Shown here: positions 17,631 to 55,120 of the stretch, piece by piece
Numbering within the stretch: position 1 is the stretch's first letter
Layout: each line of letters begins with the position of its first letter
Assembly (NCBI GenBank): GCA_030765065.1
Contig: CM060988.1
Coordinates: 176,803,065-176,867,064 of the forward strand
Reading direction: 5' to 3'
DNA from: Deroplatys truncata
Taxonomy: Eukaryota; Arthropoda; Insecta; Mantodea; Mantidae
Length of the DNA stretch: 64,000 nucleotides
Translations under genes and position numbers: made by a program
The notes under the pieces: generated by a model
The model's database searches: none
The model's input: only the letters and a program-made list of their open reading frames with translations
What the model was told of the DNA's origin: nothing

Positions 17631-17759
17631 ACTTTCTCTACTACGTATAGTAAGTAGGGGAAGTATTGTATTCCACCCAAAAATTCCATACCGAGATTTC
17701 ACCGGAAATATATGTTTTGAGACCCCCTGAATAAAAAATTTTTTTTTGGAAACATGCCC

Positions 17760-17820
<61 letters not shown>

Positions 17821-18550
17821 CAGCATAACTCAGAAACGAACAGTCGGATAAACACCAAACTTGGTATTTAGGTTCAGCATCTTCCAAGGATGCGACACGA
17901 AGGTTTTCAAGAAAATCCCAAAACCCCAGATTACCCTTTACATGGAACATTTTTCGAAAATTTTAATTTTCTCAAAAATGGCTCTTAACGATTTTGATTA
18001 AAATATAATATGTTTAAGATATTTTTATGACAAATAAAATGTATATCTTGAATTTCCTGGGAATGTCTCCAAAACTATTCTTCATTGTGAACGACTTTTG
18101 CATAACTGGTAAACCATAAGAGATAGACAAAATTTTACTACACAAAAAATGTAGATCGCGTTAAATTTATGTCATATACATTTTTTTTTGTTGAGTGAAC
18201 CATTTGAGATATTGCTTGTTATTCCCTTAAATTTTTCAATACTTATTTTCTCAAATTGGAATTCGTTATTCATTTTTTTGTCTTGGATATCCAAAGAGTA
18301 TTAATCTGTGGGAAAGGGAATGGTGCTGCACCTAGCAACCAGCTATTAAGAGATATGTATATGCTTAAAGACTACTGTATTTCCAAATTTCCCTTGTAAA
18401 TATATATTCCCCTTACATCTACAAGAAAATTAGCAATAAGATAGAGTCTGCAAATGTTTATCTCGATTAACATGAAGTAGATGGAGAATAAGCGTTTGTA
18501 TAAATACTTTGTACAAGAGTAGAGAAATTCATGTGAGTGTAACACATCAG
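17631..18550 (-). repeat. R1 repeat, near-complete (minus)
   Basis: Runs from ACTTTCTCTACTACGTATAG at 17631 to GTGAGTGTAACACATCAG at 18550, about 920 bp. It contains all R1 blocks in order and a (TG)n of about 28 units at 17761-17818. A-runs flank both ends when read on the minus strand. A minus-strand frame of ~83 codons spans the microsatellite and encodes a His-Thr run, a by-product of the dinucleotide repeat. Confidence 0.9.
17761..17818. repeat. (TG)n microsatellite inside R1
   Basis: An uninterrupted TG tract of about 28 units after CGCG. Tracts of the same kind sit at the matching R1 position near 24081, 35172, 37683, 44777 and 48779, with different lengths and interruptions in each copy. 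Confidence 0.95.
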
Positions 18551-20030
18551 ATTTTTTTGTATTCTAAGCCTAATTTTACGATAGTTTACTATAAAATAGC
18601 GTGAGAACACTGCGATGAAGAAGACACAAGTCAAGTACTAGGAAATTAAATAACGCAGCGTAAACTTCGTATATCTTGTACGAGATTACACAGAATGAAA
18701 AGTTAAGACGCAAAACAGATGAGCACGGAGTACTTGGGGCTGAAGTTCTTTTCAACAACATGCAAAACTCGAGAGGAAAATGCCACAGAGGTAATTTGTT
18801 GCCATCGGAAATCGAACCTGTATCCGCGAACTGAGAGGGAAAGCCTTTGCAATTTGATAACAGTGTAAGCAGTCCAATATCATTTAAAAGTCTATTACTG
18901 TAATAACAATTTCACTTGCACCATACACCAACAGATCGCGCCTACACTACGTTGGAGACCGCCTCTGTATTCGCAGCAGCTATTTTTCTTTAACTTTAAT
19001 AATCCTGGCATATTCCTCCCTCTTGCTCTGCTGAAAGGATCTACTTTATTACTAAGAGAGGCGGAGGATGGAGCGAAAGCCGATATGTACAACTCGGTAC
19101 CCAGCAAGTAGCTTTGGACGGATCCTCTATGGCCTACCTTCCATTTTAAAACACTTTGTTTTCGTTTGTCGTCTCGTGAAAAACAGGCAGTGCAGTCCTA
19201 TACAAGTTTCGCTGAACCTCACGGTGAGAAACGCATCATTCGCAGAGTTTGTAATTTGCCACTCGCTTCTTCATAGGTCCCGTCTTTCACATTGATCAAT
19301 AATAATTATTAGTGTCTCGGATTCAATCAATTACGACGGTTTATGTCATAATGTACTTTACAAGAATGCTATTTTATGGATAAAACGTCAGCTGGTTGCT
19401 GAATAATAGCAACAGAACCAATCATTAATTCCGCAGAAGTTTCCATTGCCGAAAACCAGCAGATTCCTTCAGCTTTCAACTTTGGAAAACTGATTTTAAA
19501 CAACACAAGGAACTAATAATTATTTTTGTAATCTATTACATCTTATCTTAAGTCTTAATAAATGACTTAATTTAACTAGGAAGTCTTAATAAATCCCATT
19601 CGAGGTTAAGAATTTCAAAAGATAAATTCGTACTGGGAAGTGATCAAAGCAATACAGTATCGATAAGTAAACTGGACTACCACCTGGAATTACCTTCTAA
19701 AACAGTCGTTCACAGTAACTCAGTAAAATCTAGCGAGCAGTTTCCTTACTCGTTGTAACGGTTAGGAGTTGACATTTGGAGACCACCTCGCCAGTCTGAA
19801 GCTTTACTCGCCCGCGGTACCTGGGTCATACAGATATTATTAATTCATCATAATCGCCAACACAGGATGCATACAGGAATAAGCGAAAACATTTAGTAAT
19901 GTTATACACACAGCAACGTATTTACGCGATGTAGGGGGCGACTCACACAAAGAATTCACGCGCTGTAGTGTTACTAGCTTGTAAAAACACATTTTCCTTT
20001 GAGCTGGTAATAGTAACTCCGACAACACCT
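18551..20030. other. Unassigned stretch
   Basis: Nothing recognised apart from a weak minus-strand B-box-like GGTTCGATTTCCG near 18804-18816, which may be a tRNA-like head. No coding frame carries a known motif. Confidence 0.35.
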
Positions 20031-20137
20031 ATGCTTAGACTATTACAAAAAGGTCGCTATAGGGTGGCCTTGAAATTCCACAGTCTTTCCATGAAATCCT
20101 TTATTTTTATGTGGCTCCTATAAACTATTCTTCTATA

Positions 20138-21292
20138 CAGGGTGTATCTTTATTGGTGTCATATTTGGGGGACGTGTTCCTGACATCAGAAACAGTAAAA
20201 AAAGTTCATACGTACATGGGTCTGAAAATCAACCGTTTCTTTGTTATAGGTCAAAGAAGATGTATTCCATGAGTGAACAGACGGATATGCACTACACGTA
20301 TGGCCGTGCAGACGGCAATGCAGCACGAGCACGTGAACTTCATGCAGAAGGATACCCAAACAGGCCGTTACAGTGTGTAAGAACGTTCGCACGAATTCAC
20401 CCAAGCTTGAGAGAGAATGGCGCATTTGAGAGGAGCACTAGGGATGTTGGGAGACCAACAGGGGTAAGAGGCATTGAGCTTGAAGTGTGCAAGGATTAAA
20501 TGAGGCGGACTTTGAGCCAAGAAGACGTTTCTGTCAACGCATGTTACAGCAGTGTGCTGTGTTCATCAATTTCCTAGCCTGTGTCTTATTCATGGATGAG
20601 GCTGGTTTTACTCGCGACGGCATCTTCAATTTTCATACTCATAACTGGGCATTTAAAAATCTTAATGAAGCACGACAGGGCAACCATCAACAGAGGTTCT
20701 CTCTCAACGATTAGGGTGGAATCATTCATGACCACCTAATTGGTCCCTACGTCTTTCCTCTGGTCTAAATGGGTAAACCTATCTCTAGTTTCTCAGAAAT
20801 GAGTTGCACACTTAACTGATAATGTGCCTCTGGACATCATCCAACGAATATGGTTTTCACACGATGGTGCTCCAGCTCATTTCAGCATGATAGTTCGTAA
20901 GTTTTTGAATGATCGATTTCCGCAAAGATGGATTGGTCGAGAGGGACCCATTGCATGGCCTGCTCGATCGCCTGATTTGAATCCAATGGATTTCTTCGTC
21001 TGGGGACATTTGAAGTCCTTGGTTTATGCGACTCCTGTAGCTGATGTTGACATTTTGAAAGGACGTATCCGAACTGAATTTGACCAAATACGAAAGACAC
21101 CAGAAATTTTCAACAGAGTACTCCAGAGCATGGAGCGCAGGCTTACTGCATGCATCGAAACAAGAGCAATTTTTGTAACTTTCGATTTTGTGTTGTGACT
21201 CTGAAATAAATAATTTTCATATGAACTTTTTTATTGTTTTAATGTCAGGAACACGTCCCGCAAATATATGACACCAATAAAGATACATCCTG
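20138..21292 (+). mobile_element. Tc1/mariner-superfamily element, DD41D-type, TA-flanked, in R1
   Basis: The left end CAGGGTGTATCTTTATTGGTGTCATATTTGGGGGACGTGTTCCTGACAT is mirrored by the right end over about 50 bp with few mismatches. TA occurs at 20136-20137 and 21293-21294, and the surrounding R1 copy reads through a single TA. The element is 1155 bp. Its transposase gene is internally deleted and interrupted, so this copy is dead. Confidence 0.92.
20260..21198 (+). pseudogene. DD41D-type transposase, internally deleted
   Basis: The N-terminus has the motif TYGRADGNAARARELHAEGY, then PNRPLQCVRTFARIH and SLRENGAF, typical of the DUF4817-like DNA-binding part of this transposase group. It ends at GRPTG near 20464 and is joined almost directly to RRRFCQRMLQQ near 20525, so about 100 residues of the usual linker are missing. 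The core reads LFMDEAGFTRDG (first Asp), then a stop at 20712-20714, SHDGAPAHF near 20860 (second Asp) and ARSPDLNPMDFFVWGH near 20965-21005 (third Asp). I count 41 residues between the second and third Asp. At least one frame change and two stops disrupt it. Confidence 0.88.
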
Positions 21293-21975
21293 TATACTTC
21301 AAATTGATTCAGATAAAGATTTGCATAGTACATAGTTTCATTGCATATTTCGTTATAGCTACAAAGGGAATAACGAAAATCTAATGTTTAAAAACTGTTC
21401 GCCATATGCTGGCCTTAAAATTCCATGCCCTTTCCATGACATCGCGAGAAACAACTGAATACCGACAGCTCTTTAAAAATGAAAAAGTTTTGAAAAATCC
21501 AAACCAATAATAACGGATATCTGGGAAAGAACTGATATAACAAATGTTATTTTAAATAAGTTGTGTGCTTCAAAGACACATACATTTAAGATATACATGT
21601 TATTTTTCACGTAAATATTTTGATTATGTGGTATTTAGTTACATTCGTTTGAGCCATTTTTGCGAAAATCCACAATTTCGAAAAATTTTGCATGTAAAGG
21701 GTAGTTTAAGGTAAGTGGATTTTGTTACAAAAAACTTGGTGTCGTATCTTTGGAAGGTACTGAATTAAATACCACATTTGGCATTTATCCAACATTTCGT
21801 TTTTTTTAGTTAATCTGTTCACAGACACATACACACATGACCTTTTTCTAGGAATGCTTCCTTTTTGGACCCGACGGGCCTCAAAATATGCAATTTCGAT
21901 GAAATCTCAATATCGAATTTTAGTGTGGAATTCAATACTTTCTGTACCTATTAGATATGTAATAAAAAAAAAAAA

Positions 21976-22407
21976 ACGAATTACTTTGCAGATGTGACCT
22001 TTGAAAAGACTCCACCTGGAACATCCAGACAGGTATGTCCTCGAAAAAGGTATATGACTAACAAATAAAATAAGCTGCTTGTTTCATATCCACTTTCTTG
22101 GCTGTCACAATTTATCTTAATCCAGGGAACATACAACACCACATTTATCTTCATATTTTAGTACCCGCATTTTCGTGTATACCTCTAGAGACGGCCGCCA
22201 CATACAAACAATAGCAAGCGATGTCGTTTGTTTCCCTCTGTCTTCTTCCACTTGCAAGGAAATATGTCAAGCATTCATATGTCCAGTGAACAGGCTAATT
22301 GGCAATCGGTATCTACGACGACGGGAAAGAAAAACATTGTTGCAAAGCTTTACTGAGTAGCGCCGTTTTCATATACTTGGGTGTCCTGTTCAACGCATTT
22401 TTAGTTT
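21976..22407. other. Unassigned stretch
   Basis: A poly(A) patch (21963-21977) is followed by sequence with no recognised feature. The fragment at 22408-22508 is an R1 tail in minus orientation (TACTGCGTACAGTAAGTAGGGG to TACATGTTTTGAGGCC). Confidence 0.4.
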
Positions 22408-22511
22408 TTCTACTGCGTACAGTAAGTAGGGGAAGTGTTGTAATCCACCCAAAAATTGATGTCGAGATTTCACGGAAATACATGTTTTGAGGCCAACTGA
22501 ATAATAAAATT

Positions 22512-24076
22512 CTGATGTGTTACACTCACATGACTTTCTCTGTTCTTGTACAAACTACTTTTACAAACGCTTATTCTCCATATGCTTCATGTTAATCTTA
22601 TTGCTAATTTTCATGTAGATGCAAGGGGAATTGGTAGGTTTTAAGCGATAGTCAAATATTTTAAGAGCTGGTTGCTATGTGGCGCATTCCATTCTCTTTG
22701 CATGTCCAGTACATTAAAAAAAATCTGATGTGTTACACTCACATGACTTTCTCTACTCTTGTACAAACTATTTATACAAACGCTTATTCTCCATATGCTT
22801 CATGTTAATCGAGATAAACATTTGCAGACTCTATCTTATTGCTAATTTTCTTGTAGATGTAAGGGGAATATATATTTACAAGGGCAATATACAAATACAG
22901 TAGCCTTTAAACACATACATATCTCTTATTAGCTGGTTGCTCGCTGCAGCACCATTCGCTTTGCCACAGATTAATACTCTTTGCATATCGAAGACAAAAA
23001 AATGAATAACGAATTCCCATTTGAGAAAAGTATTGAAAAATTTAAGAGAATAACAAGCAATATCTCGAAAATGGTTCACTCAACAAAAAAAAAATATATA
23101 TGATATAAATTGTGTATTTTAACGCGATCTACATTTTTTGTGTAGAAAGTTTTGTCTATCTCTTATGGTTTACCAGTTATGTAAAAGTCGTTCACAATGA
23201 AGAATACTTTTGGAGACATTCCCAGAAAATTCGAGATATACATTTCATTTCTCATGACATTATCTTAAACATATGATATTTTCATCAAAATCGTTAGAGC
23301 CATTTTTGAGAAAATTAAAATTTTCGAAAAATCTTCCATGTAAAGGGTAGTCTGGGGTGGGGGGATTTTCTTGAAAACCTTCGTGTCGCATCTCTGGAAG
23401 ATACTGAACGTAAATACCAAGTTTGGTGTTTATCCGACTGTTAGTTTTTGAGTTATGCTGTTCACAGACACACACACACAGACACACACACGGACATGTT
23501 TCCAAAAATGCTTTTTGTGGATTCAGGAGGTCTCAAAACATGTATTTCCGGTGAAATCTCGGGTGGAATGCAATACTTCTCCTACTTACTATACGTAGTA
23601 GAGAAAGTAAAAATGAATAACGAATTCCCATTTGAGAAAAGGTATAAGTATTGGAAAATTTAAGGGAATAACAAGCAATTATCTAGAAAATGATTCACCC
23701 AACAAAAAAAAATGTATATGACATAAATTGTGTATTTTAACGCGATCTACATTTTTTGTGTAGCAAAATTTTGTCTTATCTCTTATGGTTTACCAGTTAT
23801 GCAAAAGTCGTTCACAATGAAGAAAACTTTTGGAGAGATTCCCAGAAAATTCGAGATATACATTTCATTTGTCATGAAAGTATCTTAAACATATGATATT
23901 TTAATCAAAATCGTTAGAGCCATTTTTGAGAAAATTAAAATTTTCGAAAAATGTTCCAAGTAAAGTGTACTCTGGGGTGGGGGGAGTTTCTTGAAAACCT
24001 TTGTGTCGCATCTCTGGAAGATACTGGACCTAAATACCAAGTTTGGTGTTTATCCGACTGTTTCTGAGTTATGCTG

Positions 24077-24121
<45 letters not shown>

Positions 24122-24247
24122 GCATGTTTCTAAAAATGCTTTTTTTGGATTCAGGGGGTCTCAAAACATGTATTTCCGGTGAAACCTCGGTATCGAATTT
24201 TTGGGTGGAATACAATACTTCCCCTTACTAAAAGTAGTAGAGAAAGT
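22512..24247 (+). repeat. R1 repeat (plus) interrupted by another R1 copy
   Basis: The outer copy starts CTGATGTGTTACACTCACATG at 22512 and reaches CTTTGCATGTCCAGTACATT at 22725. It resumes at 23609 with AAAAATGAATAACGAATTCCC, runs through a (CA)n of about 19 units at 24081-24118, and ends GTAGTAGAGAAAGT at 24247. Without the insert it is about 850 bp and co-linear with other R1 copies. Confidence 0.9.
22735..23608 (+). repeat. R1 repeat, complete, inserted into an older R1
   Basis: Runs CTGATGTGTTACACTCACATG to TAGTAGAGAAAGT, 874 bp, with a short interrupted (CA)n near 23466-23490. AAAAAT flanks it directly on both sides (22729-22734 and 23609-23614) and the outer R1 is continuous across it. 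This gives the clearest view of R1 termini and a probable 5-6-bp target duplication in an A-run. Confidence 0.92.
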
Positions 24248-24253
24248 AATAAC

Positions 24254-24712
24254 TAACGAGTTTGATTAAAATACCATATATTAAAGATGTTTACATGGCA
24301 AATAACATGTATATCTTGAATTTCTGAGAATATCCTGCGTAGTCCGCTTCATTCGGGAGAATTTATATATTGTTGTATAATTAGTAAACGTTAAGCATAG
24401 AAGTAAACGGACTACACAAAAAATGTAGTTATTTAAAATACCTTTTTTATGATATAAGCCATTTCCGAGATATTCGTTATTAATGGTTCGAATTGTTTAA
24501 TACTTGGTCATTCCTCTAAAGTCCTGTCAACATTCAGTTGTTTCTCGCGATGTCATGGAAACAGTATGGAATTTTAAGGCCAGCATATAGCACCCAGTTC
24601 TTAAACATTTGACTATCGCTGTTCTCTTTGTATCTATAACGAAATGTGTAATGTAGCTATTTCTGTAAAAGTTTATTTGGATTAAAATGAAGTAGATAGT
24701 TGTGTATCTATC
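24254..24712 (-). repeat. R1 fragment (minus), older subfamily
   Basis: Runs from GTTTGATTAAAATACCATATATTAAAG through TTATTAATGGTTCGAATTG and GTTTCTCGCGATGTCATGGAAACAG to GGATTAAAATGAAGTAGATAG. The GATGTCATGGAAACAGTATGG block marks a subfamily distinct from copies that carry the GGGAATGGTGCTGCACC block. Confidence 0.75.
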
Positions 24713-24799
24713 CACTAGTAGGTCATGTGGATATAACAAATAAGACTGTTACTTCTCCACCACTTATGATAAAGAGAAAGAGAAACAGCATAACTAAGA

Positions 24800-25300: not shown

Positions 25301-25314
25301 ACTTCAAAAAAATT

Positions 25315-26180
25315 CTGATGTGTTACACTCACTTTCTGTACTCTTGTACAAACTATTTTTACAAACGCTTATTCTCCATATACTTCATGTTAATCGAGAT
25401 AAACATTTGCAGACTCTATCTTATTGCTAATTTTCTTGTAGATGTAAGTGGAATATATATTTACAAGGGCAATATAGAAATACAGTAGCCTTTAAGCATA
25501 TACATATCTCTTAATAGCTGGTTGCTAGGTGCAGCACCATTCCCTTTGCCACAGATTATAACTCTTTGCATATCCAAGACAAAAAAATGAATAATGAATT
25601 CCCATTTGAGAAAATAAGTATTGAAAAATTTAAGGGAATAACAAGCAATATCTCGAAAATAGTTCACTCAACAACAAAAATGTATATGACATAAATTGTG
25701 TATTTTAACGCGATCTACATTTTTTGTGCAGTAAAATTTTGTCTATCTCTTATGGTTTACCAGTTATGCAAAAGTCGTTCACAATGAAGAATACTTTTGG
25801 AGACATTCCCAGAAAATTCAAGATATACATTTTATTTTTCATGAAAATATCTTAAACATATGATATTTTAATCAAAATCGTTAGCCATTTTTGAGAAAAT
25901 TAAAATTTTCAAAAAATGTTGCATGTAAAGCGTAATCTGGGGTGGGGAGATTTTCTTGAAAACCTTCGTGTCGCATCTCTGGAAGATACTGAACCTAAAT
26001 ACCAAGTTTGGTGTTTATCCGACGTTTCTGAGTTATGCTGCTCACAGACACAGACATGTTTCCAAACATGCTTTTTTGGATTCAGGGGTTCTCAAAACAT
26101 GTATTTCGGTGAAATCTCGGTATCGAATTTTTGGGTGGAATACAATACTTCCCCTACTTACTATACGTAGTAGAGAAAGT
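25315..26180 (+). repeat. R1 repeat, near-complete (plus)
   Basis: CTGATGTGTTACACTCAC to CGTAGTAGAGAAAGT, 866 bp, with the (CA)n almost absent (CACAGACACAGACATG). It shows A-runs at both borders like other copies. Bases 26181-26660 hold a further diverged R1 piece (plus) with CACGCACGCACACCGACC. Confidence 0.88.
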
Positions 26181-27354
26181 AAAAAGTGACGAAACTACTT
26201 CAAACCGATGATGACGAATACCTCGCAAGTGACTGTCACAAAAAAGTTATTTTAATATAATCTGTGTGCTTTACAGAGACGTACGTTGTTTGTCTCTATC
26301 TCTTATGGTTTACCCGTTACAGAACATCATACAAACTTCATTCTTAAATAAGACAACTTCACAGGTTCATTCAGGAAAATTCAAAATTTAATTTTATATC
26401 ATCTTAAATATGTGGCATTTTAATCATAATCCTTGGAGCCATTTCAGAGAGAAAAACAAAACAAACAAAACTGCAAATTCTTCCGTGTAAAAAATAAAAA
26501 CACGCACGCACACCGACCTTTGTCTAAAAATACTTTTTTGGGCGGAGGGGATTCAGTGTTCCTCAAAACACGTATTTGTTTTTAAAAAAAAAAAACTCGT
26601 GTCTCAACGTTAGAAGTTGCTGAAATTGTTTTATATCATGTTTGGTATTCAATCTACTCTTCGCTTTTTACTTTCTCTACTACGTACAGTAAGTAGGGGA
26701 AGTATTGTATTCCACCGACACCGAGATTTCACCGGAAATACATGTTTTGAGACCCCCTGAATCCAAAAAAAGCATTTGTGGAAACATGTCCGTGTGAGTG
26801 TGTCTGTGAACAGCATAACTCAGAAACGAACAGTCGGATAAACACCAAACTTGGTATTTAGGTTCAGTATCTTCCATAGATGCGACACGAAGGTTTTCAA
26901 GAAAATCCCCCCACCCCAGATTACGCTTTACATTCAACATTATTTGAAAATTTTAATTTTCTCAAAAATGGCTAACGATTTTGATTAAAATATCATATGT
27001 TTAAGATAGTTTCATGACAAATAAAATGTATATCATGAATTTTCTGGGAATGTCTCCAAAAGTATTCTTCATTGTGAACGACTTTTGCATAACTGGTAAA
27101 CCATAAGAGATAGACAAAATTTTACTGCACAAAAAATGTAGATCGCGTTAAAATACACAATTTATGTCATATACATTTTTGTTGTTGAGTGAACCATTTT
27201 CGAGATATTGCTTGTTATTCCCTTAAAGTTTTCAATACTTATTTTCTCAAATGTGAATTCGTTATTCATTTTTTGTCTTGGATATGTAAAGAATATTAAT
27301 CTGTGGGAAAGGGATAGTGCTGCACCTAGCAACAAGCTATTAAGAGATATGTAT

Positions 27355-28072: not shown

Positions 28073-28279
28073 GTATGTGCTTAAAGACTACTGCATTTCT
28101 ATATTGCCCTTGTAAATATATATTCCCCTTACATCTACAAGAAAATTAGCAATATGATATACTCTGCAAATGTTTATCTCGATTAACATGAAGTAGATGG
28201 AGAATAAGCGTTCTATAAATAGTTTGTACAAGAGTAGAGAAAGTCATGTGAGTGTAACACATCAGATTTTTAGTAATGC

Positions 28280-29062: not shown

Positions 29063-30294
29063 ACTTTCTCTACTACGTACTACATAGTAAGGTAGAGAAG
29101 GTATTGCATTCCATCCCAAAATTCGATATCGAGATTTTGCCGGAAATACGTTTTGACATCTGCTGAAGAAAAAAAAAAGTTTTAGAAAAATGTCCGCGCG
29201 CGCATATCTGTGAAGAGCATAACTCAAAAACGAAAAGCCATGTAATTACCAAACTTGGTATTTAGGTTCAGTACATTCCAAAGATACATGAAGATTTCCA
29301 AGAAAATCCCCCTCCCCCAAACTACCCTTTGCATGAAACGTTTTTCGAATTTTTTTCTTCTTTCTCTGTTTAACCTCCTCTTATGTAGGACTTACAAGTG
29401 GGTGCCTGGGATCAGAGGCCCGTCGAGGAGCAGACACTCATGGATCAGACAGAAGATCCAGGATGGGTGATCAGCCCGATGCCCGGTATGGGAGAAAGGA
29501 AGTAGATGAAACGAAATGATGGTGAAATGGATGAAAGGAAAGGTGATGATGGAGCAGTCGGTGGAATGAACGGCGGGGGAACCCGGAGAAAACCTGCCCA
29601 GACGCCGCTTTGTCCACCACAAATCCCACATGCGGGGAATACACGAACCCGGGCCGCCTCGGTGAGAGGCGAGCGGTCTAACCACTCGTCCACGGCACCG
29701 CCTTTTCGAAATTTTTTATTCTCAAAAAAAAAAGCTCTAGCCGTTTTCTAATTGATTAAAATACCACATATTAAAGATATTTACATGGCAAATAAAATGT
29801 ATGTCTTGAATATTCTGGGAACAGCCTGTTAAGTCCTCTTCAATCGGATGGAATTTTGTATAATGTTGTATAACTAGTAAACGAGAAGCGATAGACGAAA
29901 AGGTACTACACAAAAAATGTAGATATCTCTATAACACACAATTTATTTCAAGTAAGATGTTTTGTGGCATGGGCCATTTCTGAAATATATATTATTAAAG
30001 GTTCGAGTTCTTCATTTCTTGGCAATTCTCTTAAAGTACTGTCAACATTCAGTTGTTTCTCGTGACTGCATGGAAACAGTATGGAATTTTAAGGCCAGCG
30101 TATAGAGTCCAGTTCTAAAACATTTGACTATCGCTGTTCCTTTTATATCTATAAGGATATGTGCAATGTAGCCATTTCTGCAAAGATCCTATTTGCATTA
30201 AAATGTAATAGAAAAACAAACTTTAGTAAACATAGTTTGTATACCCACTAATAAACGAGAGGGTAGAGAAAGCCATGTGAATGTATCACAGCAG
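29063..30294 (-). repeat. R1 repeat (minus) split by SINE-4
   Basis: ACTTTCTCTACTACGTACTAC at 29063 leads through the tail blocks to TTTTTCGAATTTTTTT near 29356. It resumes at 29703 and runs to GTGAATGTATCACAGCAG at 30294. It has the older-subfamily CATGGAAACAGTATGGAATTTTAAGGCC block. The (TG)n is reduced to a few CG/TG units. Confidence 0.85.
29357..29702 (-). mobile_element. SINE-4, tRNA-derived, inserted in R1
   Basis: The minus-strand head reads GTGGACGAGTGGTTAGACCGCTCGCC, then GGCCCGGGTTCG, resembling a tRNA-Ser-type A box and a slightly decayed B box. The body contains GGGATTTGTGGTGGACAAAG, TTTTCTCCGGGTTCCCCCG and GGGCATCGGGCTGATCACCCA, and ends near TAAGAGGAGGTTAAACAGAG. TTTTCGAAWTTTTTT borders it at 29342-29356 and 29703-29717, a target duplication of about 15 bp with one mismatch. 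Length is about 346 bp. Confidence 0.85.
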
Positions 30295-34469: not shown

Positions 34470-35177
34470 CTGTTGTGTTAGACTAACATGACTTTCTCTA
34501 CTCTTGTACAAACTATTTTTACAAACGCTTATTCTCCATACGTTTCATGTTAATCCAGATGTTAATCTTATTGCTAATTTTCTTGTAGATGCAAGGGGAA
34601 TTGCTAGGCTTTAAGCTATAGTCAAATATTTTAAGAGCTGGTTGCTATTTGGAGTATTCCATTTTCTTTGCATTACCATGACAAAAAAAAAATTGAATAA
34701 CGAATTTGAGAAAAAGTATAAGTATTGGAAAATTTAAGGGAATAACAAGCAATATCTCGAAAATGGTTCACTCAACAACAAAAATGTATATGACATAAAT
34801 TGTGTATTTTAACGCGATCTACATTTTTTGTGTGGTAAAATTTTGTCTATCTCTTGTGGTTTACCAGTTATGCAAAAGTCGTTCACAATGAAGAATACTT
34901 TTGGAGACATTCCCAGAAAATTCCAGATATACATTTTATTTGTCATGAAAACATCTTAAACATATGACATTTTAATCAAAATCGTTAGAGCCATTTTTTA
35001 GAAAATTAAGATTTTCGAAAAATGTTCCATGTAAAGGGTAATCTGGGGTGGGGAGATTCTCTTGAAAACCTTCGTGTCGCATCTCTGGAAGATACTGAAC
35101 CTAAATACCAAGTTTGGTGTTTATCCGACTGTTCGTTTCTGAGTTATGCTGTTCACAGACAGACGGACAGACACACA

Positions 35178-35213
<36 letters not shown>

Positions 35214-35342
35214 CATGTTTCCTAAAATCCTTTTTTTTGGATTTAGGGGGTCTCAAAACATATATTTCCCGTGAAATCTCGGTATCGAATTTTTGGGTGG
35301 AATACAATACTTCCCCTACTTACTATACGTAGTAGAGAAAGT
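34470..35342 (+). repeat. R1 repeat, near-complete (plus)
   Basis: CTGTTGTGTTAGACTAACATG to ACGTAGTAGAGAAAGT, 873 bp, with a compound (CA)n containing CAGACAGACGGACAGACACACAG before about 19 CA units. All blocks are in order. Confidence 0.9.
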
Positions 35343-35708: not shown

Positions 35709-36521
35709 CTGATGTGTTGCACTCACATGACTTTCTCTACTCTTGTACAAACTATTTTTACAAACGCTTATTCTCCATATGCTTCATGTTACTCGAGATA
35801 AACATTTGCAGAAACTATCTTACTGCTAATTTTCTTGTACGTGCAAGGGGAATTGGTAGGCTTTAAGCGACAGTCAAATGTTTTAAGACCTGGTTGCGAT
35901 GTGGAGCATTCCATTCTCCTTGCATGTCCAGGACATAAAAACACGAACAACGAATTCCCATTTTAGAAAAAGTGTAAGTATTGCAGAATACAAACAAATA
36001 GCAAGCAATATCTTGGGAACGGCTCATCCCCAAAAATACGAAAAGAAAAAAGTATATAATAAATTGCATATTTTAACATCTACATTCTTTGCGCTGTAAA
36101 AGTTTGTCTATCGCTTACGGTTTATCAGTTATGCAAAAGTCATTCAGAATGATGAGGGCTTTTGGAGACATTCCCACAAAATTCAAGATCTTTCATTTGC
36201 CATAAAAATATCTTAAACATATGATATTTGAATCAAAATTGTTAGAGCCATTTTGGAGGAAAAGAAAATTTTCGAAAAATGTTCCATTTAAGAGTAGTCG
36301 GGGGTTGGGGGTGTCGCATCTTTGAAAGATACTGAAGTTTGGTATTAATCCCATTTTTAGTTTTTGGGTTATGCTGTTCACAGACACACACAGACCTTTT
36401 TTTAAAAATGTTTTCTTTTTATTCAGGGGGACTCATAGCATATATTTCCGGTGAAATCTCGGAATCGAATTTTTGGGTGGAATGCAATACTTCCCCTACT
36501 TACTATAGCAGTAGAGAAAGT
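35709..36521 (+). repeat. R1 repeat, near-complete (plus)
   Basis: CTGATGTGTTGCACTCACATG to CAGTAGAGAAAGT. The (CA)n is short (CACAGACACACACAGACC) and the block CTTGAAAACCTTC is deleted near 36309. Bases 35345-35500 hold another diverged fragment, and 35501-35700 are unassigned. Confidence 0.88.
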
Positions 36522-37110: not shown

Positions 37111-37685
37111 GTTTCTTGTAGATGCAAGGGGAATATGGTAGCTTTAAGCGATAGTCAAATATTTTAAGAGCTGGTTGCTATGTGGAGCATTCTATTCTCT
37201 TTGTATGTCCAGGACATAAAAAAATGAATAACGAATTCCCATTTGAGAAAAAGTATTGGAAAATTTAATGGAATAACAAGCAATACCTCTAAAATGGCTC
37301 ACCCAACAAAAAAAATGTATATGCCAAATTGTGTATTTTAAGGCGATCTACATTTTTTGTGTAGTAAAATTCTGTCTATCTCTTACGGTTTACCAGTTAT
37401 GCAAAAGTCGTTCACAACGAAGAATACTTTTGGAGACATTCCCAGAAGATTCGAGATATACATTTCATTTGTCATGAAAATATCTTAAACATATGATATT
37501 TTAATCAAAATCGTTAGAGCCATTTTTGAGAAAATTAAAATTTTCGAAAAATGTTTCATGTAAAGGGTAATCTGGGGTGGGAGATTTTCTTGAAAACCTT
37601 CATGTCGCATCTCTGGAAGATACTGAACCTAAATACCAAGTTTGGTGTTTATCCGACTGTTCGTTTCTCAGTTATACTGTTCACA

Positions 37686-37728
<43 letters not shown>

Positions 37729-37851
37729 TTCTAAAAATGCTTTTATTGGATTCAGGAGGTCTCAAAACATATATTTCCGGTGAAATCTCGGTATCGAATA
37801 TTTGGGTGGAATACAATACTTCCCCTACTTACTATACGTAGTAGAGAAAGT
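37110..37851 (+). repeat. R1 repeat (plus), head truncated
   Basis: Starts within TTTCTTGTAGATGCAAGGGG and runs to ACGTAGTAGAGAAAGT at 37851, with about 20 CA units at 37685-37725. The missing head coincides with the end of the Harbinger-like fragment. Confidence 0.88.
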
Positions 37852-44640: not shown

Positions 44641-44644
44641 TTTT

Positions 44645-44781
44645 ACTTTCTCTACTACGTATAGTAAGTAGGGGAAGTATTGCATTCCACCCAAAAATTC
44701 GATACCGAGATTTCACCGGAAATACACGTTTTGAGACCTCCTGAATCCAAAAAAAGCATTTTTGGAAACATGTCCGTGTGT

Positions 44782-44815
<34 letters not shown>

Positions 44816-45519
44816 CTGTGTGTCTGTGAACAGCATAACTCAAAAACGAACAGTCGGATAAACACCAAACTTGGTATTTAGGTTCAGTATCTTCCAGAGA
44901 TGCGACACGAAGGTTTTCAAGAAAATCCCCCCAACCCAGACTACCCTTTACATGGAACATTTTTCGAAAATTTTAATTTTCTCAAAAATGGCTCTAACGA
45001 TTTTGATGAAAATATCATATGTTTAAGATAATGTCATGAGAAATGAAATGTATATCTCGAATTTTCTGGGAATGTCTCCAAAAGTATTCTTCATTGTGAA
45101 CGACTTTTGTATAACTGGTAAACCGTAAGAGATAGGCAGAATTTTACTACACAAAAAATGTAGATCGCGTTAAAATACACAACTTATGTCATATACATTT
45201 CTTTTGTTGAGTGAACCGTTTTCGAGATATTGCTTGTTATTTCCTTAAATTTTCCAATACTTATAATTTTTCTCAAATTCGTTATTCATTTTTTTTATGT
45301 CCTGGACATGCAAAGAGAATGGAATGCGCCACATAGCAACCAGCGTTAAAATATTTGACTATCGCTTAAAAGCTACCATATTCCCCTTGCATCTACAAGA
45401 AAATTACCAATAAGATTGACATTTCGATACCTCGATTAACATGAAGCATATGGAGAATAGGCGTTTGTAAAAGTAGATTGTACAAGAGTAGAGAAAGTCA
45501 TGTGAGTGTAACACATCAG
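44645..45519 (-). repeat. R1 repeat, near-complete (minus)
   Basis: ACTTTCTCTACTACGTATAG to GTGAGTGTAACACATCAG, 875 bp, with interrupted (TG)n near 44776-44827. All blocks are in order. Confidence 0.9.
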
Positions 45520-47330: not shown

Positions 47331-47344
47331 CACACACACACACA

Positions 47345-48015
47345 CGACTGACCTACGCACATTTCGTTTTAGGTAAAAGTGGGGTAGACGAAACCGAAGA
47401 TGTTTAAAAGCAAGCAGCTATATGCTGGCCTTGAAATGCCATACCCTTTCCATGACAGAGAAGAACAATACAACAGCGACAGAACTTCAACAAAATGACA
47501 AAGTATTGAAAAATTTATACCAATAATAATGGATATCTCGGAAATGGCTGATGCCACAAAACAGTTATTTGAAATAAACTGTGTGTTCTGAAGACTATAC
47601 ATTTTTTGTCTCTCTCTTACGGTTAATCATTAATTCAATGCTCATTCAGAATATACAAGACTTCACAGGCTATTCTCAGAAAATTCTAGATATGCATTTT
47701 GTGATGTAAATGTATGGTATTTTGGTCAAAATCTTTAGAACTAGTTCTGAGAAAATAAAAAATATCGGAATATTTTTTCCCATGTAAAGGGTAGTTTGGG
47801 GAGGTTTTGCATGTTTGGAGAGTAATGAATTTAAATACCAAGTTTTCAATTTTGAGTTATGCTGTTCACAGACACACGAACCTTTTTTTTTTCTAAAAAT
47901 GCATTTGTTTCGATTCAGGGGACTCAAAACACGTATTTTCGGTAAAATCTTCATATCGAATTTTTGGATGGAACGCAGTACTTTTTCTACCTACACGGTA
48001 CGCGAAAGGGAAAGT
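47345..48015 (+). repeat. R1 repeat (plus), diverged
   Basis: GCAAGCAGCTATATGCTGGCCTTGAAATGCC, GGATATCTCGGAAATGGCTGATGCC, CCCATGTAAAGGGTAGTTTGGGG, GCTGTTCACAGACACACGAACC and a tail near CGGTACGCGAAAGGGAAAGT mark an older copy without head. Confidence 0.7.
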
Positions 48016-48646
48016 AATTAACCGAACTTACTTTTCGAATTGCCCTAGTAACATTGTATATTTTAAAAAAAATAGTTGTGGCCCAACAGACTAACGAAGA
48101 CCTGAGTCCAGGAGCAGAGTGTACCTTGTATAGCCAATGCTATGAGTGTACATATTACTATAATTATCGCTTATTTATTTTTGTTAAGTACCGTACAAAT
48201 AGTTCGGTCCGCCTACTCCATGACAAATCAAATTGTCGAGTGCCATGTGCAGTTTCGCTGTGTTGGCATGGAAACGGATCAGCGGGATGTAATTTGCTTG
48301 CGTCCCATTGCCCAATTAAGTGAGGCGAACACAAAGGGAGGCTATTGTCAGTCTCAGCGAGCTCTCTATCAACAATAAAACGAACCACTCTACAGCAGAG
48401 CCACCTACCTATCTTCCTACCTGCTCCCTTCAAGAAAAGCTGCTGTTCAAAAAACATCGTTCTAAATATGAGTTATGGAAGCCAGACGATACAAAACACA
48501 GAGAAAAAATGTTTTTCCGTGTCTTATTCACATAAACCTGGTGAAATTAAATTAAACACAGTAACTTAAGCAGGCAGGGGATGATAAAACAATTCATGAT
48601 TACCAAAAAAATTGACATATGTGTAATGCAACCACTTATAAGTTTT
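48016..48646. other. Unassigned stretch
   Basis: No recognised element. Several overlapping frames of 70-97 codons on both strands lack motifs. Confidence 0.4.
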
Positions 48647-49561
48647 ACTTTCTCTACTACGTATAGTAAGTAGGGGAAATATTGTATTCCACCCAAAAAT
48701 TCGATACCGAGATTTCACCGGAAATACATATTTTGAGACCCACTGAATAAAAAAAAAAAGCATTTTTGGAAACATGTCCGTGTGTGTGTGTGTGTGTGTG
48801 TGTCTGTGTGTGTGTGTGAACAGCATAACTCAGAAACGAACAGTCGGATAAACACCAAACTTGGTATTTAGGTTCAGTATCTTCCAGAGATGCGACACAA
48901 AGGTTTTCAAGAAAATCCCCCCACCCCAGGGTACCCTTTACATGGAACATTTTTCGAAAATTTTAATTTTTTCAAAAATGGCTCTAACGATTTTGATTAA
49001 AATATCATATGTTTAAGATACTTTCATGACAAATAAAATGTATATCTTGAATTATCTGGGAATGTCTCCAAAAGTGTTCTTCATTGTGAACGACTTTTGC
49101 ATAACTGGTAAACCATAAGAAATAGACAAAAGTTTACTACACAAAAAATGTAGATCGCGTTAAAATACACGATTTATGTCATATACATTTTTTTTGTTGA
49201 GTGAACCATTTTCGAGATATTGCTTGTTATTCTCTTAAATGTTTCAATACTTATTTTCTCAAATGGGAATTCGTTATTCATTTTTTTTGTCTTGCATATG
49301 CAAAGAGTATTAATCTGTGGGAAAGGGAATGGTGCTGCACCTAGCAACCAGCTATTAAGAGATATGTATGTGCTTAAAGGCTACTGTATTTCTATATAGT
49401 GCCCTTGTAAATATATATTCCCCTTACATCTACAAGAAAATTAGCAATAAGATAGAGTCTGTAAATGTTTATCTCGATTAACATGAAGTAGATGGAGAAT
49501 AAGCGTTTGTAAAAATTGTTTGTACCAGAGTAGAGAAAGTCATGTGAGTGTAACACATCAG
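48647..49561 (-). repeat. R1 repeat, near-complete (minus); reference empty site
   Basis: ACTTTCTCTACTACGTATAG to AGTGTAACACATCAG, 915 bp, with (TG)n interrupted by TC near 48779-48818. Its uninterrupted GATATGTATGTGCTTAAAGG at about 49359 is the reference site for the LTR-A insertion at 27355. Confidence 0.92.
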
Positions 49562-50699
49562 ATTTTTTATGTTGCTTTCCCACTCCTCTTAAAAAAACTA
49601 AACACAATTTGTAGAAAGTACTTTGCAATTTTTCTTACACCAACGTAAATAACAACGAAAATTCTGAATGGCTGAACCATCCTTGGATGGTCATTTGAGA
49701 GTCAAATTACGTTTCGTAATTGGGTACAAACATTTTTTTTTATTTTTGTATCCTTATTCCTCATCACAAATAAACAGCTTTTTATAAACCATTTTCTAAT
49801 GAGAAAACAACATACGAAAATGTAGGTTTCCATTTAAACAAATTAAATTGACCCTAAAATGACTATCATAACATCCTCCAAGCAACTTTTATTCAAGACA
49901 TTTCTTTCTACAACGTTTAGCTCTGGAGATATTGTACAGCCTCAAATTAAATGGTCCACCCTGTATGTCTATGTGTATATATAATCCTGATGTGTTACAT
50001 TCATATGGTTTTCTCTACCGTTCGCAACTGTTTATTTTCATGTAGCTTCTACAAACCATTCTTCTTTAACGGATTACGCTCCTGTTTGTAGGACTTGAAA
50101 TGCCTTGGATCAGTAACCTGTCGAGGAGCAAGCAACCTAGTCAGTAAACAAACAAGTTTGGAATGCACCGAGGGTTGGTGATGAGGGAGAATGGAAGACT
50201 TATGTCCTTAAAGTGTTCTCTGTAAACAAATGTGTTCAGATAAGGCAAGTCCACCCCACAGCATGAATATTAGAAGGGAAAAAAGCAATGCATGCTTAGC
50301 TATTGATAGGGTGCAGTTTGTTTATGAAAGCTACGAAACAATAATTTCGAAAGTTGTAGATTTTTACTGCAATATCTGCCTTTATTCGTGTGCGACACAG
50401 ATTCTCAAAATATTCTGATCTGTAGTTTGGGGCTGATGAGGTTGAAGATCCCCTTTCCTTATTGTTCCTTTCTAATAATGTCGCATGTTCTTTACGTTTC
50501 ATTGAATTACAGTGTTGTTTAACATTTTTTTTCAGCTAAGTTACATATAGTTTCGCCATTGTGCAGAAGTGTTTCCTGCCACATTCCGCCACAAATGATG
50601 CCAATTTTGATGTATAAACCCTTCTTTACTTTAGGCATATTGCCACAATTCTCCACTGCTGTATATGCAGGAAATAATGGGACAGATGCAACGAAACCG
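49562..50699. other. Mixed stretch: possible transposon end, R1 head, SINE-4-like piece
   Basis: AATGGTCCACCCTGTATGT at about 49951-49969 resembles the reverse of a TACAGGGTGG-type transposon terminus, with no partner found. An R1 head fragment (CCTGATGTGTTACATTCATATGG) lies at 49986-50085. GTAGGACTTGAAATGCCTTGGATCAG and CTGTCGAGGAGCAAGCA at 50090-50140 resemble the tail-side body of SINE-4. Bases 50200-50690 are unassigned. Confidence 0.45.
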
Positions 50700-51679
50700 T
50701 GAGGCAGTGTTTTTAACACTTAAATGATTTCAGTCAAATTATATAATATATAAATTCAATAACAGCCCACCTTGAGGCAATATGTGTATGTAACAATATC
50801 TAAACAGTGTATATTACAGTCATTGTATATGTTTATATTATTGAATCCATGCGTAATAATGTTATGTGAATGCATTACGTAATTTAATAATGTAGGAGCT
50901 GTGAGAAATAGGCCAAAAGTTGCTAAAAATGAGGTAACAATGAGGTAACCTTGCGGCAATAATGAGTTTTGAGAGCTTAAATGTTATTTGTGATTCTTGG
51001 AAGCATTAATGTAATTTTAGTGACAGTTTATAAAAAATAGCCAATCAACAACCATAAAAAGTTTTAGTTAAATGCAGGTATTCTATCGGAGTAAAAATCG
51101 CCAATCAGAGACTTGAAATACAGAAATTTACAAGTTTAGACGGTTGAAATCTAGTCAGTTGCCTGCGGACAGTGTTTGTAACTGGATGCGAGATGTGTCC
51201 GCGAGAAAATAATTACGTATTCGCGTGAGACGAAAAATAGTATACTTGTTAAAAAGTGCAAGTATTAAATAAAAGAATCTCACAGCTCTCGATTTCAGTG
51301 AAGTGTTATTTAATTTGTGTCAAGGATTAATAAAAAGGAGTGAATTAAAACTTAAAATCTGTGTAAGCCTACATTCTTGTCGCATCACGCCCTGCCAAGA
51401 CTTCCATGTCTCTAAAAATAATACTGACGCAGCCGAGGCAAACACACATATTTAATACTTAAAGAAAGTCAAATTAATATTTTTTTAAACTTGGGGCAAA
51501 GGCCACCTAAAAATACATTTGGGGCGAAGGCTACCAGAAACTGTTTACTATACGTGCTGTTGCAACTACAAGTTCGGCTCCCCAACAGTTGAAATACGAT
51601 ACAACTCCTCCAATACAAACTACTTCAAATCGAATTTTCATACGTAGCAGCAAACAACGTAAAGAACAATACTACTTCA
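50700..51679 (+). mobile_element. Solo LTR-C, copy 3 (ACCG duplication)
   Basis: TGAGGCAGTGTTTTTAACAC to AATACTACTTCA, 980 bp, with ACCG at 50696-50699 and 51680-51683. It is in opposite orientation to copies 1 and 2. Promoter-like motifs are ATAGCCAATCAACAACC near 51041 and CGCCAATCAGAGA near 51099 (CCAAT boxes). AATAAA lies at about 51268-51273, upstream of the CTCACAGCTCTC block shared by all copies. There is no internal coding region on either side. Confidence 0.92.
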
Positions 51680-51769
51680 ACCGGTTGTCGGGAAGGGTAA
51701 GAGGCGTCAGTCACAGTACCTGACGTTACCACGTCCGTGCGGTAACATGATTGCTTTATTTACTTACCA

Positions 51770-51895
51770 AAACCCCTCTGCCTGATCATAATATATCTGG
51801 GATGGGTGATCGGCCCAATGCCTGGTATGGCGGTGAAGAAGCGAAGCGAAGGGAATGGAATGGAATGGAATGGAATGGAATGGAATGGAATGTAG
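51770..51895 (+). repeat. SINE-4-like fragment leading into a (GGAAT)n microsatellite
   Basis: CTGGGATGGGTGATCGGCCCAATGCCTGGTATGG matches the SINE-4 body near 29458-29490 in the same sense. It runs into about eight GGAAT units at 51851-51892. Microsatellite growth from a SINE tail is plausible. Bases 51896-52200 hold no recognised feature. Confidence 0.65.
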
Positions 51896-52199
51896 TGATG
51901 AAAGGGATGATAGGAAAATTCGCGGATAAAGTATCCCAATCTTCGTGGCTAACGAAATACACAGGCTACGCCGCGAATCAGAGCTACGTAGTAATGGTAG
52001 CCTGAAACATGACTAACATTGAACAGCTTCATGGTATAACTGTGCATTTTCCATGCATTTAACAAACAATTTATTTATTGCTTTAGAATGTGGATATATT
52101 AAGCGACTGTAATTTCACTTCATAGGGCCAAGACTGATCTAGAAGTACAATCTGATTTCCGTCGCGCCGTAGCCTATCTCGCTAGCCACGCCCAATGTT

Positions 52200-52530
52200 T
52201 ACAAGACAACACGAGAAACAACTGAATAGCGACGGCACAAAAGTGACAAAAGAACTGAAAAAATCAAACCAACAATTAAGGTTATCTCGGAAATGGTTGA
52301 CCCCTCCCCCCCAAAAAAAAACAAATTGTGTGCTTTAAGGAGATGTACATTTTCTGAGTAATTAAGATTTTCTGCATCTTACGATTTATCAATTACACAA
52401 AAGTTATTCAGAATTAAAAGGACCTCACAGGCTATTTGAAGAGAAGTCAAGATATCGACTTGACTTTACTTTACATGCAAATAACATGCGATATTTTAAC
52501 CAAAATATCATTTTTGGGAAACAAAAAAAA
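52200..52530 (+). repeat. R1 fragment (plus)
   Basis: ACACGAGAAACAACTGAATAGCGACGG, GGTTATCTCGGAAATGG, GGAGATGTACATTTTCTGAGTAATTAAG and AAAAGTTATTCAGAATTAAAAGGACC are R1 middle blocks. The copy ends at the next R1 head. Confidence 0.7.
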
Positions 52531-53193
52531 TTTCTGATGAGATACATCACATTACTTTTTCTACCCTCTATAGTTTATTACCGAGTACACAAAATATTCT
52601 TACTAAAGCTCATTTTTATATATACTAGGTTTTAATCCAAATAAACCTTTGCAAAAGTAGCTACATTCCACATTTCGTTATAGATACAAATAAAACAGCG
52701 ATATTCAAATGTCCTACTGTTAGCCTGAAAATTCCACACTCTTTCCATGCAATCGCGAGAAACAATTGAATGCTGAAAGGACTTTAAACAAGAAATTAAC
52801 AATTCGAGCCATTAATAATGGATCTCTCAGAAATGGCTTATACTACAAAAAAACTTATTTGAAATAAATTGTGTCTTTTAAAGATATCTACATTTATTGT
52901 GCAGTAGTTTTTGTCCATCACTTAACTTTTACCATTTATACAAGATTATACAAAATTCCTTCCCAATGAAGAGGACTTCACATGCTATTCCAAGAAAATT
53001 CACGATATACATTTTATTTGTGATGCAAATATCTTTAATATATGATATATTAACCAAAATCGTTGCCATGTTTTAGAAAATAAAAATTTTCTAAAAATGT
53101 TTCATGTAAAGGGTGGTTTGGGGTGGGGTATTTTCTTAAAAATCATTGTGTCGCATCCTTGGAAGATACTGAACTTAAATAGCAAGTTTACTA

Positions 53194-54268
53194 TAGGGTA
53201 GTTATATTATATTCAAACCCACTCGTGGCCTCTCTCTAGTACGCGAGACACCCGCAGTCGCCGGGGAAATTACGCCGGCAGAGGCAGACTAAACTCCTTA
53301 CCAGTAACGGATGCTGGAAATGTTGAGCTTCTGCTCTCAAACAGGCAGCATATCTCGTGTAAATATTCTCGCTCACTCTCCGAAGCTCAGTAGCAGGAAT
53401 TCTTGGGATTTTTCTTGCACAATGTTTTCTCTTAAGTTCATGTAGTGTGCGAGGATTGGAACGATACATGGCCTTAGAATTAGCCTCTGATATCGCTCCC
53501 GCTAAACGTGTGAATTATTGTAACTGGTTTTTCCAAGCCCAAGAAAGGAGTTTCATTGACCCACAGCTTTTGTTTTTCACTGATGAATCTTGGTTTCGTC
53601 TAAGTGAACGTGTGAATACTTACTACAGTCGATACTGGGCTTCAGAAAGACCTGTGCTACTGGACGAAACGCCTCATTATGATCAGAAAATTTAAGTGTG
53701 GTGTGCGAAAAGTGCTAGAAGAAGAATAATAGGGTCCATATTCTTTGATGAAACAAAAAATTTTGAGCGATATTAGAAGTTAATTCTGAGGCCATTTTGC
53801 AATCGCTTGACAGAAGAGGAGAAATCGTATAGTTGGTTCCAGCAAGATTCTGCAACAGCACATACGCTGCCAAATCACTACATGCAATAAGAGAGGTGTT
53901 TGATGACAGAATATTTAGTGTTGATTTGTGACCCCCTCGTTCTCCTGACCTAACGAGTTGTGATTTTTATTTATGGGGTTCTTTAAAAGACAAAGTGTAT
54001 CGTTCCAATCCTCACACATGCAGGAACTTAGAGAAAACACTGTGCAAGAAATTACAAGAATTCCTACTGCTGAGCTTCGGAGAGTAAGCGAGAATATTTA
54101 CACGAGATATGCTGCCTGTTTGAGAGCAGAAGGTCAACATTTCCAGCATCCATTATAAGGTAAGGATTTTAGTCCGCCTCTGCCGACGTAATTTCCCCGG
54201 CGACTGCCGGCTGTCTCGCGCAGTAGAGAGAGGCCGCGAGTGGGTTCGAATATAATTTAACTACTCTA
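53194..54268 (+). mobile_element. Fold-back Tc1/mariner-superfamily element with ~272-bp inverted arms
   Basis: The left arm 53194-53467 and right arm 53997-54268 are near-perfect inverted copies. TA flanks both ends (53192-53193 and 54269-54270). The terminus is TAGRGTAGTTAWATTATATTC, followed by AACCCACTCG. Each arm holds the end of a transposase gene: both a plus-strand frame (ending near 54158) and a minus-strand frame (53469 down to 53236) encode ATELRRVSENIYTRYAACLR. The true 5' end of the element has thus been replaced by an inverted copy of its 3' end. It sits in an R1 copy whose order is restored by joining the flanks. Confidence 0.9.
53461..54158 (+). pseudogene. Mariner-like transposase (about DD37D), 5' replaced, broken
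   Basis: The core begins ELASDIAPAKRVNYCNWFFQ, then LLFFTDESWFRLSE (first Asp, near 53580), a stop near 53695, VWCAKSARRRIIGSIFF, FQQDSATAHT near 53845 (second Asp), a one-base frameshift and a stop where the usual WPP lies, then RSPDLTSCDFYLWGSLKDKV near 53938-53997 (third Asp). I count about 37 residues between the second and third Asp across the frameshift. It ends with HFQHPL and a stop at about 54156. The N-terminal DNA-binding domain is absent because the left arm is an inverted 3' end. Confidence 0.82.
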
Positions 54269-54358
54269 TAATTATCCGAGTTTTCGTTTTTTTAGTTATG
54301 TTGTTGACAGATACACACACACACACACACACACGCACACGAACCTTTTTCTAAAAAT

Positions 54359-55120
54359 CTGATGTGTTACACTCAAATGACTTTCTCTACTCTTGTACAA
54401 ACTATTTTTACAAACTCTTATTCTCCATACGCTTCATGTTAATCTTATTGCTAATTTTCTTGTAGATACAAGGGGAAATGGTAGGCTTTAAGCGTTTAAG
54501 AGCTGGTTGCTATGACGGAGTACTCCATTCTCTTTGCATTATCAGGACAAAAAAATAATGAATAACGAATTCCCATTTGAGAAAAAGTATAAGTATTGGA
54601 AAATTTCAAGGAATAATGAGCAATGCCAAGAAAATGGTTCACTCAACAACAACAAAAAATGTATATCACATAAATTGTGCATTTTAACGCGATCTACATT
54701 TTTTGTGTAGTAAAATTTTGTCTATCTCTTATGGTTTACCAGTTATGCAAAAGTCGTTCACAATGAAGAATACTTTTGGAGACATTCCCAGAAAATTCGA
54801 GATATACATTTTATTTGTCATGAAACTATCTTAAATATATGATATTTTAATCAAAATCGTTAGAGCCATTTCTGAGAAAATTAAAATTTTCTAAAAATGT
54901 TCCATGTAAAGGGTAATCTGGGGTGGGGGTATTTTCTTGAAAACCTTCGTGTCGCATCTCTGGAAGATACTGAACCTAAACACCAAGTTTGGTGTTTATC
55001 CGACTGTTCGTTTCTGAGTTATGCTGTTCACAGACAAAACATATATTTCCGGTGAAATCCCGGTATCGAATTTTTGGGTGGAATACAATACTTCCCCTAC
55101 TTACTATACGTAGTAGAGTA
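54359..55120 (+). repeat. R1 repeat, near-complete (plus), no (CA)n
   Basis: CTGATGTGTTACACTCAAATG to TACGTAGTAGAGTA, about 760 bp, with the microsatellite and adjoining block reduced to CACAGACAAAACATATATTTCC. A further short R1 piece (GGTAGTTTAGGATGACAG to GTTCACAGACACACAGC) follows to about 55230. Confidence 0.85.

Follow-up and report, generated by a model that had tools for sequence, protein, structure and literature searches.

R1, a Probable Non-Autonomous Helentron Family Abundant in the Genome of the Mantis Deroplatys truncata

The closest described counterparts of the repeat treated here, R1, are the non-autonomous Helentron elements known as HINEs. Those described from Culex and from the mite Metaseiulus have, like R1, subterminal inverted repeats, a 3' palindrome, microsatellites and T-rich targets (Thomas et al., 2014; PMC4067079). 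DINE-1 (INE-1) of Drosophila, again likened to R1 by description, is non-coding and combines subterminal inverted repeats, an internal microsatellite, a 3' stem-loop and a TT target (PMC4067079). Among the autonomous elements, one residue of the Rep signature is S in Helentrons and L in Helitrons (Thomas et al., PMC4067079), and bursts of Helitrons in Deroplatys truncata have already been published (PMC12908712). R1 is the dominant repeat of a stretch of 64,000 nucleotides of D. truncata, hereafter the window (assembly GCA_030765065.1, contig CM060988.1, forward-strand positions 176,803,065 to 176,867,064), within which all unprefixed coordinates below are given.

R1 is very probably a non-autonomous Helentron element, of the HINE or DINE-1-like kind. 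A preliminary description of the window had left the repeat unclassified, a label that is wrong because an autonomous Rep/PIF1 relative with the same ends was found. R1 is apparently a new family within an established class of mobile element, likened to the known systems by their descriptions; in the literature on its terminal motifs and on Deroplatys or mantis Helitrons, within its accessible text, no description of the family was found, PMC12908712 being the only relevant paper. Since both this class of element and the bursts of Helitrons in the species are in print, the biology is not new. The present analysis gives the commonest repeat of the window a name and connects it with the long intact protein-coding frames of a partner element elsewhere in the genome.

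The Termini of R1 and Its Candidate Autonomous Partner

R1 is about 0.92 kb long and codes for nothing. The reference copy (17631-18550, + strand, 920 bp, with ACTTTCTCTAC taken as the 5' end) lies 3.5% from the majority of 18 aligned full-length copies, seven of which come from the window, nine from seven hit loci and two from two Rep loci. A 12-bp repeat stands at the 5' tip, where ACTTTCTCTACT folds with the next bases into a hairpin (17631-17664, +) whose energy of -4.7 kcal/mol in the reference copy was equalled by 4 of 200 shuffles. Of the distinct 5' ends in all loci fetched, 20 of 29 have 10 or more of the 12 stem pairs, whereas shuffled tails reach this in 1.4% of cases. TT precedes 59 of 65 R1-type 5' ends; before this count, 42 of 107 motif places had been set aside because a simple rule on the bases in front of them marked them as the 3' repeat running in the opposite direction. 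The ACTTTCTCTAC(T) of the 5' tip returns as an inverted copy of 11-12 bp, separated from the 3' CAG end by 21 bp (18519-18529, +, with one mismatch in the reference copy), and is followed by a weak hairpin, ATGTG-7-CACAT, and then by the terminus CAGATTTTT (18530-18556, +). The asymmetric ends and the A/T-runs on both sides, both noted in the preliminary description, are seen in the aligned copies. So is its (CA)n at a fixed position: the GT-rich tract lies near position 130 (17762-17817, +, in the reference copy), at an offset of 117-133 in seven window copies and of 85 in the eighth, from which positions ~90-172 are absent. Matches in the window to the terminal motifs CTGATGTGTT and GTAGAGAAAGT number 10 and 25, against 0.23 and 0.01 expected from dinucleotide shuffles.

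The same genome holds elements of about 10 kb with R1-type termini that encode a Rep/PIF1 protein of about 2,324 aa. Matches to the Helitron Rep family (PF14214) number 152 in the genome, and among the matches listed at least 18 have an open frame of 2,000 aa or more with no internal stop. One autonomous copy, read across (L039+L040), has a frame of 2,324 aa in which the Rep and PIF1 domains are accompanied by DUF6570 and a Herpes_teg_N-like domain; the Pfam scores are 1.8e-28 for PIF1 and 1.2e-27 for Helitron Rep. Fused after PIF1, at the C-terminus, is an AP endonuclease domain (Exo_endo_phos_2, PF14529; 2.3e-6, 27.9 bits against a cut-off of 27.4). The Herpes_teg_N-like domain, near the N-terminus of the protein (L039:1627-8500), scores 1.2e-8. 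All ten young loci (L029-L038) carry the Rep signature RGSPHEH (VEFQMRGSPHEH). Among the other 20 Rep loci fetched (L009-L028), 12 show RGLPH, the canonical Helitron signature, and eight no such motif; this second Rep group, mostly with internal stops, coexists with the first.

Each of the nine autonomous copies examined ends in an R1-type 3' terminus, followed by A and a T-run; the sequence after the terminus is R1's own T-run region in four of them (C4, C5, C8 and C13c) and different sequence in the others. Eight of the nine begin after T's with the exact R1 5' terminus ACTTTCTCTACTACGTATAGTAAGTAGGGG. The remaining copy, C8, has its own 5' end outside the fetched stretch, so that 5'-end counts refer to eight copies; the R1 start at L065:475 belongs to a separate R1 that has inserted into the inner head of C8, not to the 5' end of the element. 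The exact 35-nt autonomous 3' end has 45 copies in the genome (control 0); for 40 of them a listed Rep match on the same strand starts 4,687-6,274 bp upstream. Over its last 32 bp the partner agrees with the R1 consensus at 30 of 32 bases in the two copies measured, and with the reference copy at 29 of 32. It is the kind of larger relative with the same ends that the preliminary description had expected to classify R1. No detectable piece of the autonomous frame lies within the window, and IMG/VR, searched with a Rep segment and both terminal motifs, yielded no relative.

As a non-autonomous Helentron, R1 would retain only the terminal signals recognised by an autonomous Helentron Rep/helicase/endonuclease, namely the 5' repeat with its hairpin and, on the 3' side, the subterminal inverted copy and the hairpin that closes with CAGATTTTT. 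Rep would nick the 5' end of R1 in a T-run, after which a single strand would be peeled off and copied, with synthesis halting at whichever 3' terminus comes first; the strand would then be joined into another T-run. Strand transfer, the rolling-circle step and mobilisation by this autonomous lineage, or by an older sister of it, we infer from what is known of the family.

Target Sites and Competing Identities

For 34 elements both ends were found, although at least five rows of the resulting flank table are mispaired ends. A left flank ending in five T's is the commonest (16 of 34), and the T-run of the right flank comprises 5 to 8 T's in 27 of 34, as a rule after an A. Three insertions have a left flank that is not pure T. 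At the one at window position 35709 the two flanks share nothing; those at L002:1501 and L005:2772 have ATT both at the end of the left flank and at the start of the right, but nearly every right flank starts with ATT, whatever the left flank. The evidence from empty sites consists of nestings of R1 in R1 and of R1 in the Helentron, together with pattern counts. The R1 within an autonomous copy (L065+L055, 475-1422) has T6 before it and A+T7 after it when filled, and T8 stands in the two uninterrupted counterparts printed; nestings at R1's own T-run show T5-6 on the left and T7-9 on the right, against T6-9 when empty. No clear target duplication was found outside T at the R1 junctions, and their simplest reading would be a 3' end at CAGATTTTT and no target duplication. 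R1, with 5' AC, 3' CAGATTTTT and T-run targets, does not show the features of canonical Helitron1 (5' TC, 3' CTRR, insertion between A and T).

Several observations weigh against placing R1 among the Helentrons with the partner described above. Because the targets are T-runs, a duplication of five T's would be indistinguishable from T's of the element. The folding energy of the 3' hairpin is no better than that of shuffles (z -0.61). The endonuclease score only just clears its cut-off, and a PDB sequence search with this region gave no convincing match, the one obtained being at chance level (E 0.37). What the autonomous elements have in common with R1 is ~750 bp at the 5' end and the final 32 bp, not the intervening segment, and in each of the two copies measured the last 60 bp agree with the R1 consensus in only 45 of 65 aligned columns, or at 38 of 60 positions without gaps; the true partner of R1 may therefore be an older sister of the autonomous element found. 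Judged by their repeats, partner and R1 would be the same family and, by the published rule of 80% over the last 60 bp, different subfamilies. The R1 heads inside the autonomous element, finally, may have been picked up from R1, not the reverse.

The rival that survives best would make R1 a Helitron2 without endonuclease, not a Helentron proper, which is the same clade and mechanism under another name. Two hairpins with asymmetric terminal inverted repeats define Helitron2 (Bao and Jurka, 2013; PMC3627910); the termini of R1 also fit this, the 5' hairpin including the 5' repeat as Helitron2 requires, and the marginal endonuclease match points the same way. Yet the partner carries its endonuclease-like region as a C-terminal fusion to PIF1, which is the Helentron arrangement, its G-S-P signature matches that of Helentrons (PMC4067079), and Helentrons cluster with Helitron2 in published work (PMC5148889). 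A separate Helitron2 identity is improbable, and the Helentron assignment is preferred.

Far less probable still is a miniature inverted-repeat transposable element (MITE) of a cut-and-paste terminal inverted repeat (TIR) transposon, its outer ~21 bp on one side gained later. The short inverted match of 11-12 bp and the insertion into T-rich DNA are in its favour, and DINE-1 was once filed that way (PMC4067079). However, the 3' extension with its hairpin is present in 18 of 18 aligned full-length R1 and in nine autonomous copies, and the autonomous protein with the same ends is a Rep/PIF1/endonuclease, not a DDE transposase; the ends and junctions of R1 show neither TIRs at both extreme ends nor a fixed target duplication. 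A SINE-like (short interspersed nuclear element) or other retroposon, with the A/T-runs as poly-A tail and target duplications, is hardly credible either: A-runs on both sides, asymmetric ends and high copy number would suit it, but both ends are fixed and common to the Rep element, the T-run past the 3' hairpin is short, as given above, and no RNA family matches the R1 copies at Rfam gathering thresholds. No tRNA, 7SL or 5S head was found in full-length R1; the sole tRNA-like Rfam match of the window, outside these copies at 11768-11836 (29.9 against 29 bits, negative in ARAGORN), is perhaps a tRNA-derived repeat. A long terminal repeat (LTR) identity was considered and rejected. The preliminary description, which had seen no tRNA or 7SL head and had ruled out a classic TIR transposon and an LTR element, was right on these points and in its account of the ends.

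Copies, Abundance and Self-Insertion

The R1 consensus has 53 local matches in the window, on both strands, which cover 15,752 of 64,000 bases (24.6%) and 35.5% of 17631-55120, in keeping with the abundance first described; the reversed, uncomplemented window, as control, gave 0 matches. The eight near-complete copies originally listed are confirmed by consensus matches, with two amendments: a start at 22735 is corrected to 22725, and the last copy (54359-55121, -), near-complete, is split in two pieces, the other seven being full length in one match. Besides the reference, these seven comprise 22725-23608 (-), 25315-26180 (-), 34470-35342 (-), 35709-36521 (-), an old copy 14.8% from the majority, 44645-45519 (+) and 48647-49561 (+). 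The copy at 22725 is nested in an older R1 at the latter's T-run, the outer element being split into its positions 1-647 (23609-24247, -) and a 3' remainder with its own 3' end (22512-22724, -). Among partial copies, positions 1-730 stand at 26670-27354 (+), interrupted before a 3' part of positions 727-920 at 28073-28265 (+), and positions 1-751 at 37132-37851 (-). Since the 18 aligned copies diverge by 1.9-14.8% from their majority, R1 was probably laid down over a long time. Segmental duplication as the source of the copies, which would have overturned the first description, is ruled out by unique 250-bp flanks on both sides of 11 of 27 insertions, relative to the sequences then compared; many of the remaining flanks are themselves R1 sequence. 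Mariner-type transposase fragments also lie in the window, at 4565-5074 and 20803-21195 (HTH_48 2.4e-7; a weak DDE_3 below cut-off).

The claim of two subfamilies stands in part. The GGGAATGGTGCTGCACC block, exact in 7 of 18 full-length copies, does mark one subgroup of R1, and an 18-column block at its site is missing from six of the 18, the copy at 34470 belonging to the subgroup without it. CATGGAAACAGTATGG, proposed as the mark of the other, is in none of the 18; its four places in the window all fall inside stretches resembling an older related family, R1b, which has the same kind of termini. R1b at 29063-30294 (+), ~72% identical to R1 where alignable, holds CATGGAAACAGTATGG and a foreign insert of ~347 bp (29356-29702). 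This insert is 84% similar to L042:2188-2560 and tRNA-like by eye, with no tRNA called by ARAGORN or Rfam.

Genome-wide, R1 accounts for 14,908 bases of 40 sampled sites (90 kb, at arbitrary round-number positions; reversed control 0), or 16.6% of the genome (bootstrap 10.7-22.4%), somewhat below its share of the window. It is held by 21 of the 40 sites, two sets of 20 gave 19.8% and 12.5%, and the partner-specific part had 0 coverage in the sample. On the largest contig (C16, 707 Mb) R1 was in one of six sampled sites, too few to call depletion. The exact 5' 30-mer of R1 occurs 131,038 times in the genome and the exact 3' 20-mer 147,968 times (control 0 for each), counts that include heads and ends inside larger units. 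With a Helitron share of 7-20% published for grasshopper repeat content, in the accessible part of that report (PMC7486953), this level is high but not unheard of.

R1 itself is a frequent target. The T-run at its position ~646 (18273-18279, +, empty in the reference copy) is a hot spot for insertion of the family: by exact words, which give lower bounds, it is followed by an R1 5' end at 19,297 places in the genome, R1 from 647 onwards comes after an R1 3' end at 13,439 places (filled) against 80,370 uninterrupted sites (empty), and at 6,830 places a 3' end is joined to a 5' end across a T-run. About one seventh of the recognisable hot-spot sites are filled, the filled and empty patterns having only right-hand words in common. 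The eight autonomous copies with the 5' end read carry R1 1-646 followed directly by R1 1-752, that is, two stacked heads; in the three autonomous elements shown, the outer head is best matched among the 18 by the window copy at 44645 (94-96%) and the inner by that at 48647 (~91%). Because the head join AATGCGTTATTCATTTT|ACTTTC is identical in all eight, it was inherited. A third R1, entered at the same T-run, surrounds the entire unit in C4, C5 and C13c. Self-insertion followed by a stop at the first 3' end is described as giving several 5' termini and one 3' terminus (PMC5148889, in its accessible part), and the stacked heads fit this idea.

Tentatively, and with somewhat more doubt than confidence, we suggest that R1 is its own preferred landing pad and that copying from the outermost 5' end to the first 3' end builds head-stacked units, the young autonomous Helentron being such a unit on two captured R1 heads; self-targeting and stacking would then form a ratchet towards about one sixth of the 4.3-Gb genome. 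With some 13,000 filled sites and 80,000 empty ones, a single target offers a natural dataset for Helentron target choice and for the start and stop of copying. Of the findings, it is the self-targeting and the partner's stacked heads that may reward a specialist's attention.

R1 pieces also occur in arrays. Near the start of contig C1, a tandem array of ~3,409-bp units (C1:20307-122788) contains R1 hot-spot words, most units holding an R1 3' end ~223 bp beyond them, as in a satellite that took in a piece of R1. Four 3'-to-5' R1 joints exactly 2,481 bp apart (C1:19824422-19831894) form a short tandem array with R1 ends. Equally spaced inverted pairs of R1 heads are found at locus L108 (C1:22028000-22033300) and, in similar form, at 13.83, 26.12 and 8.18 Mb of C1; the L108 arms show no difference over 563 bp, at which point the fetched stretch ends, and they enclose a ~76-bp tandem array, and the locus has no stop-to-stop frame over 111 aa.

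Comparison With Described Systems

The available descriptions allow R1 to be set beside three further sets of published features. In Helitron2, as in R1, the 5' repeat lies within the 5' hairpin, insertion follows TTTT, and the 3' repeat immediately precedes the 3' hairpin, at 20-30 bp from the end; the partner of R1 differs from it by its C-terminal endonuclease-like domain (PMC3627910). The composite FoHelis of Fusarium oxysporum resemble the partner in having several 5' termini and one 3' terminus, but their duplicated 5' piece is typically below 200 bp, against ~646 bp in all eight autonomous copies with the 5' end read (PMC5148889). The HINEs of Metaseiulus and Culex, like R1, vary in the number of terminal T's and outnumber their Rep/Hel/endonuclease partner, and no target modification was found for them in the published account; compared by description, R1 stands apart from them in its host, in its very high share of the genome and in a partner that carries two stacked non-autonomous 5' heads (PMC4067079).

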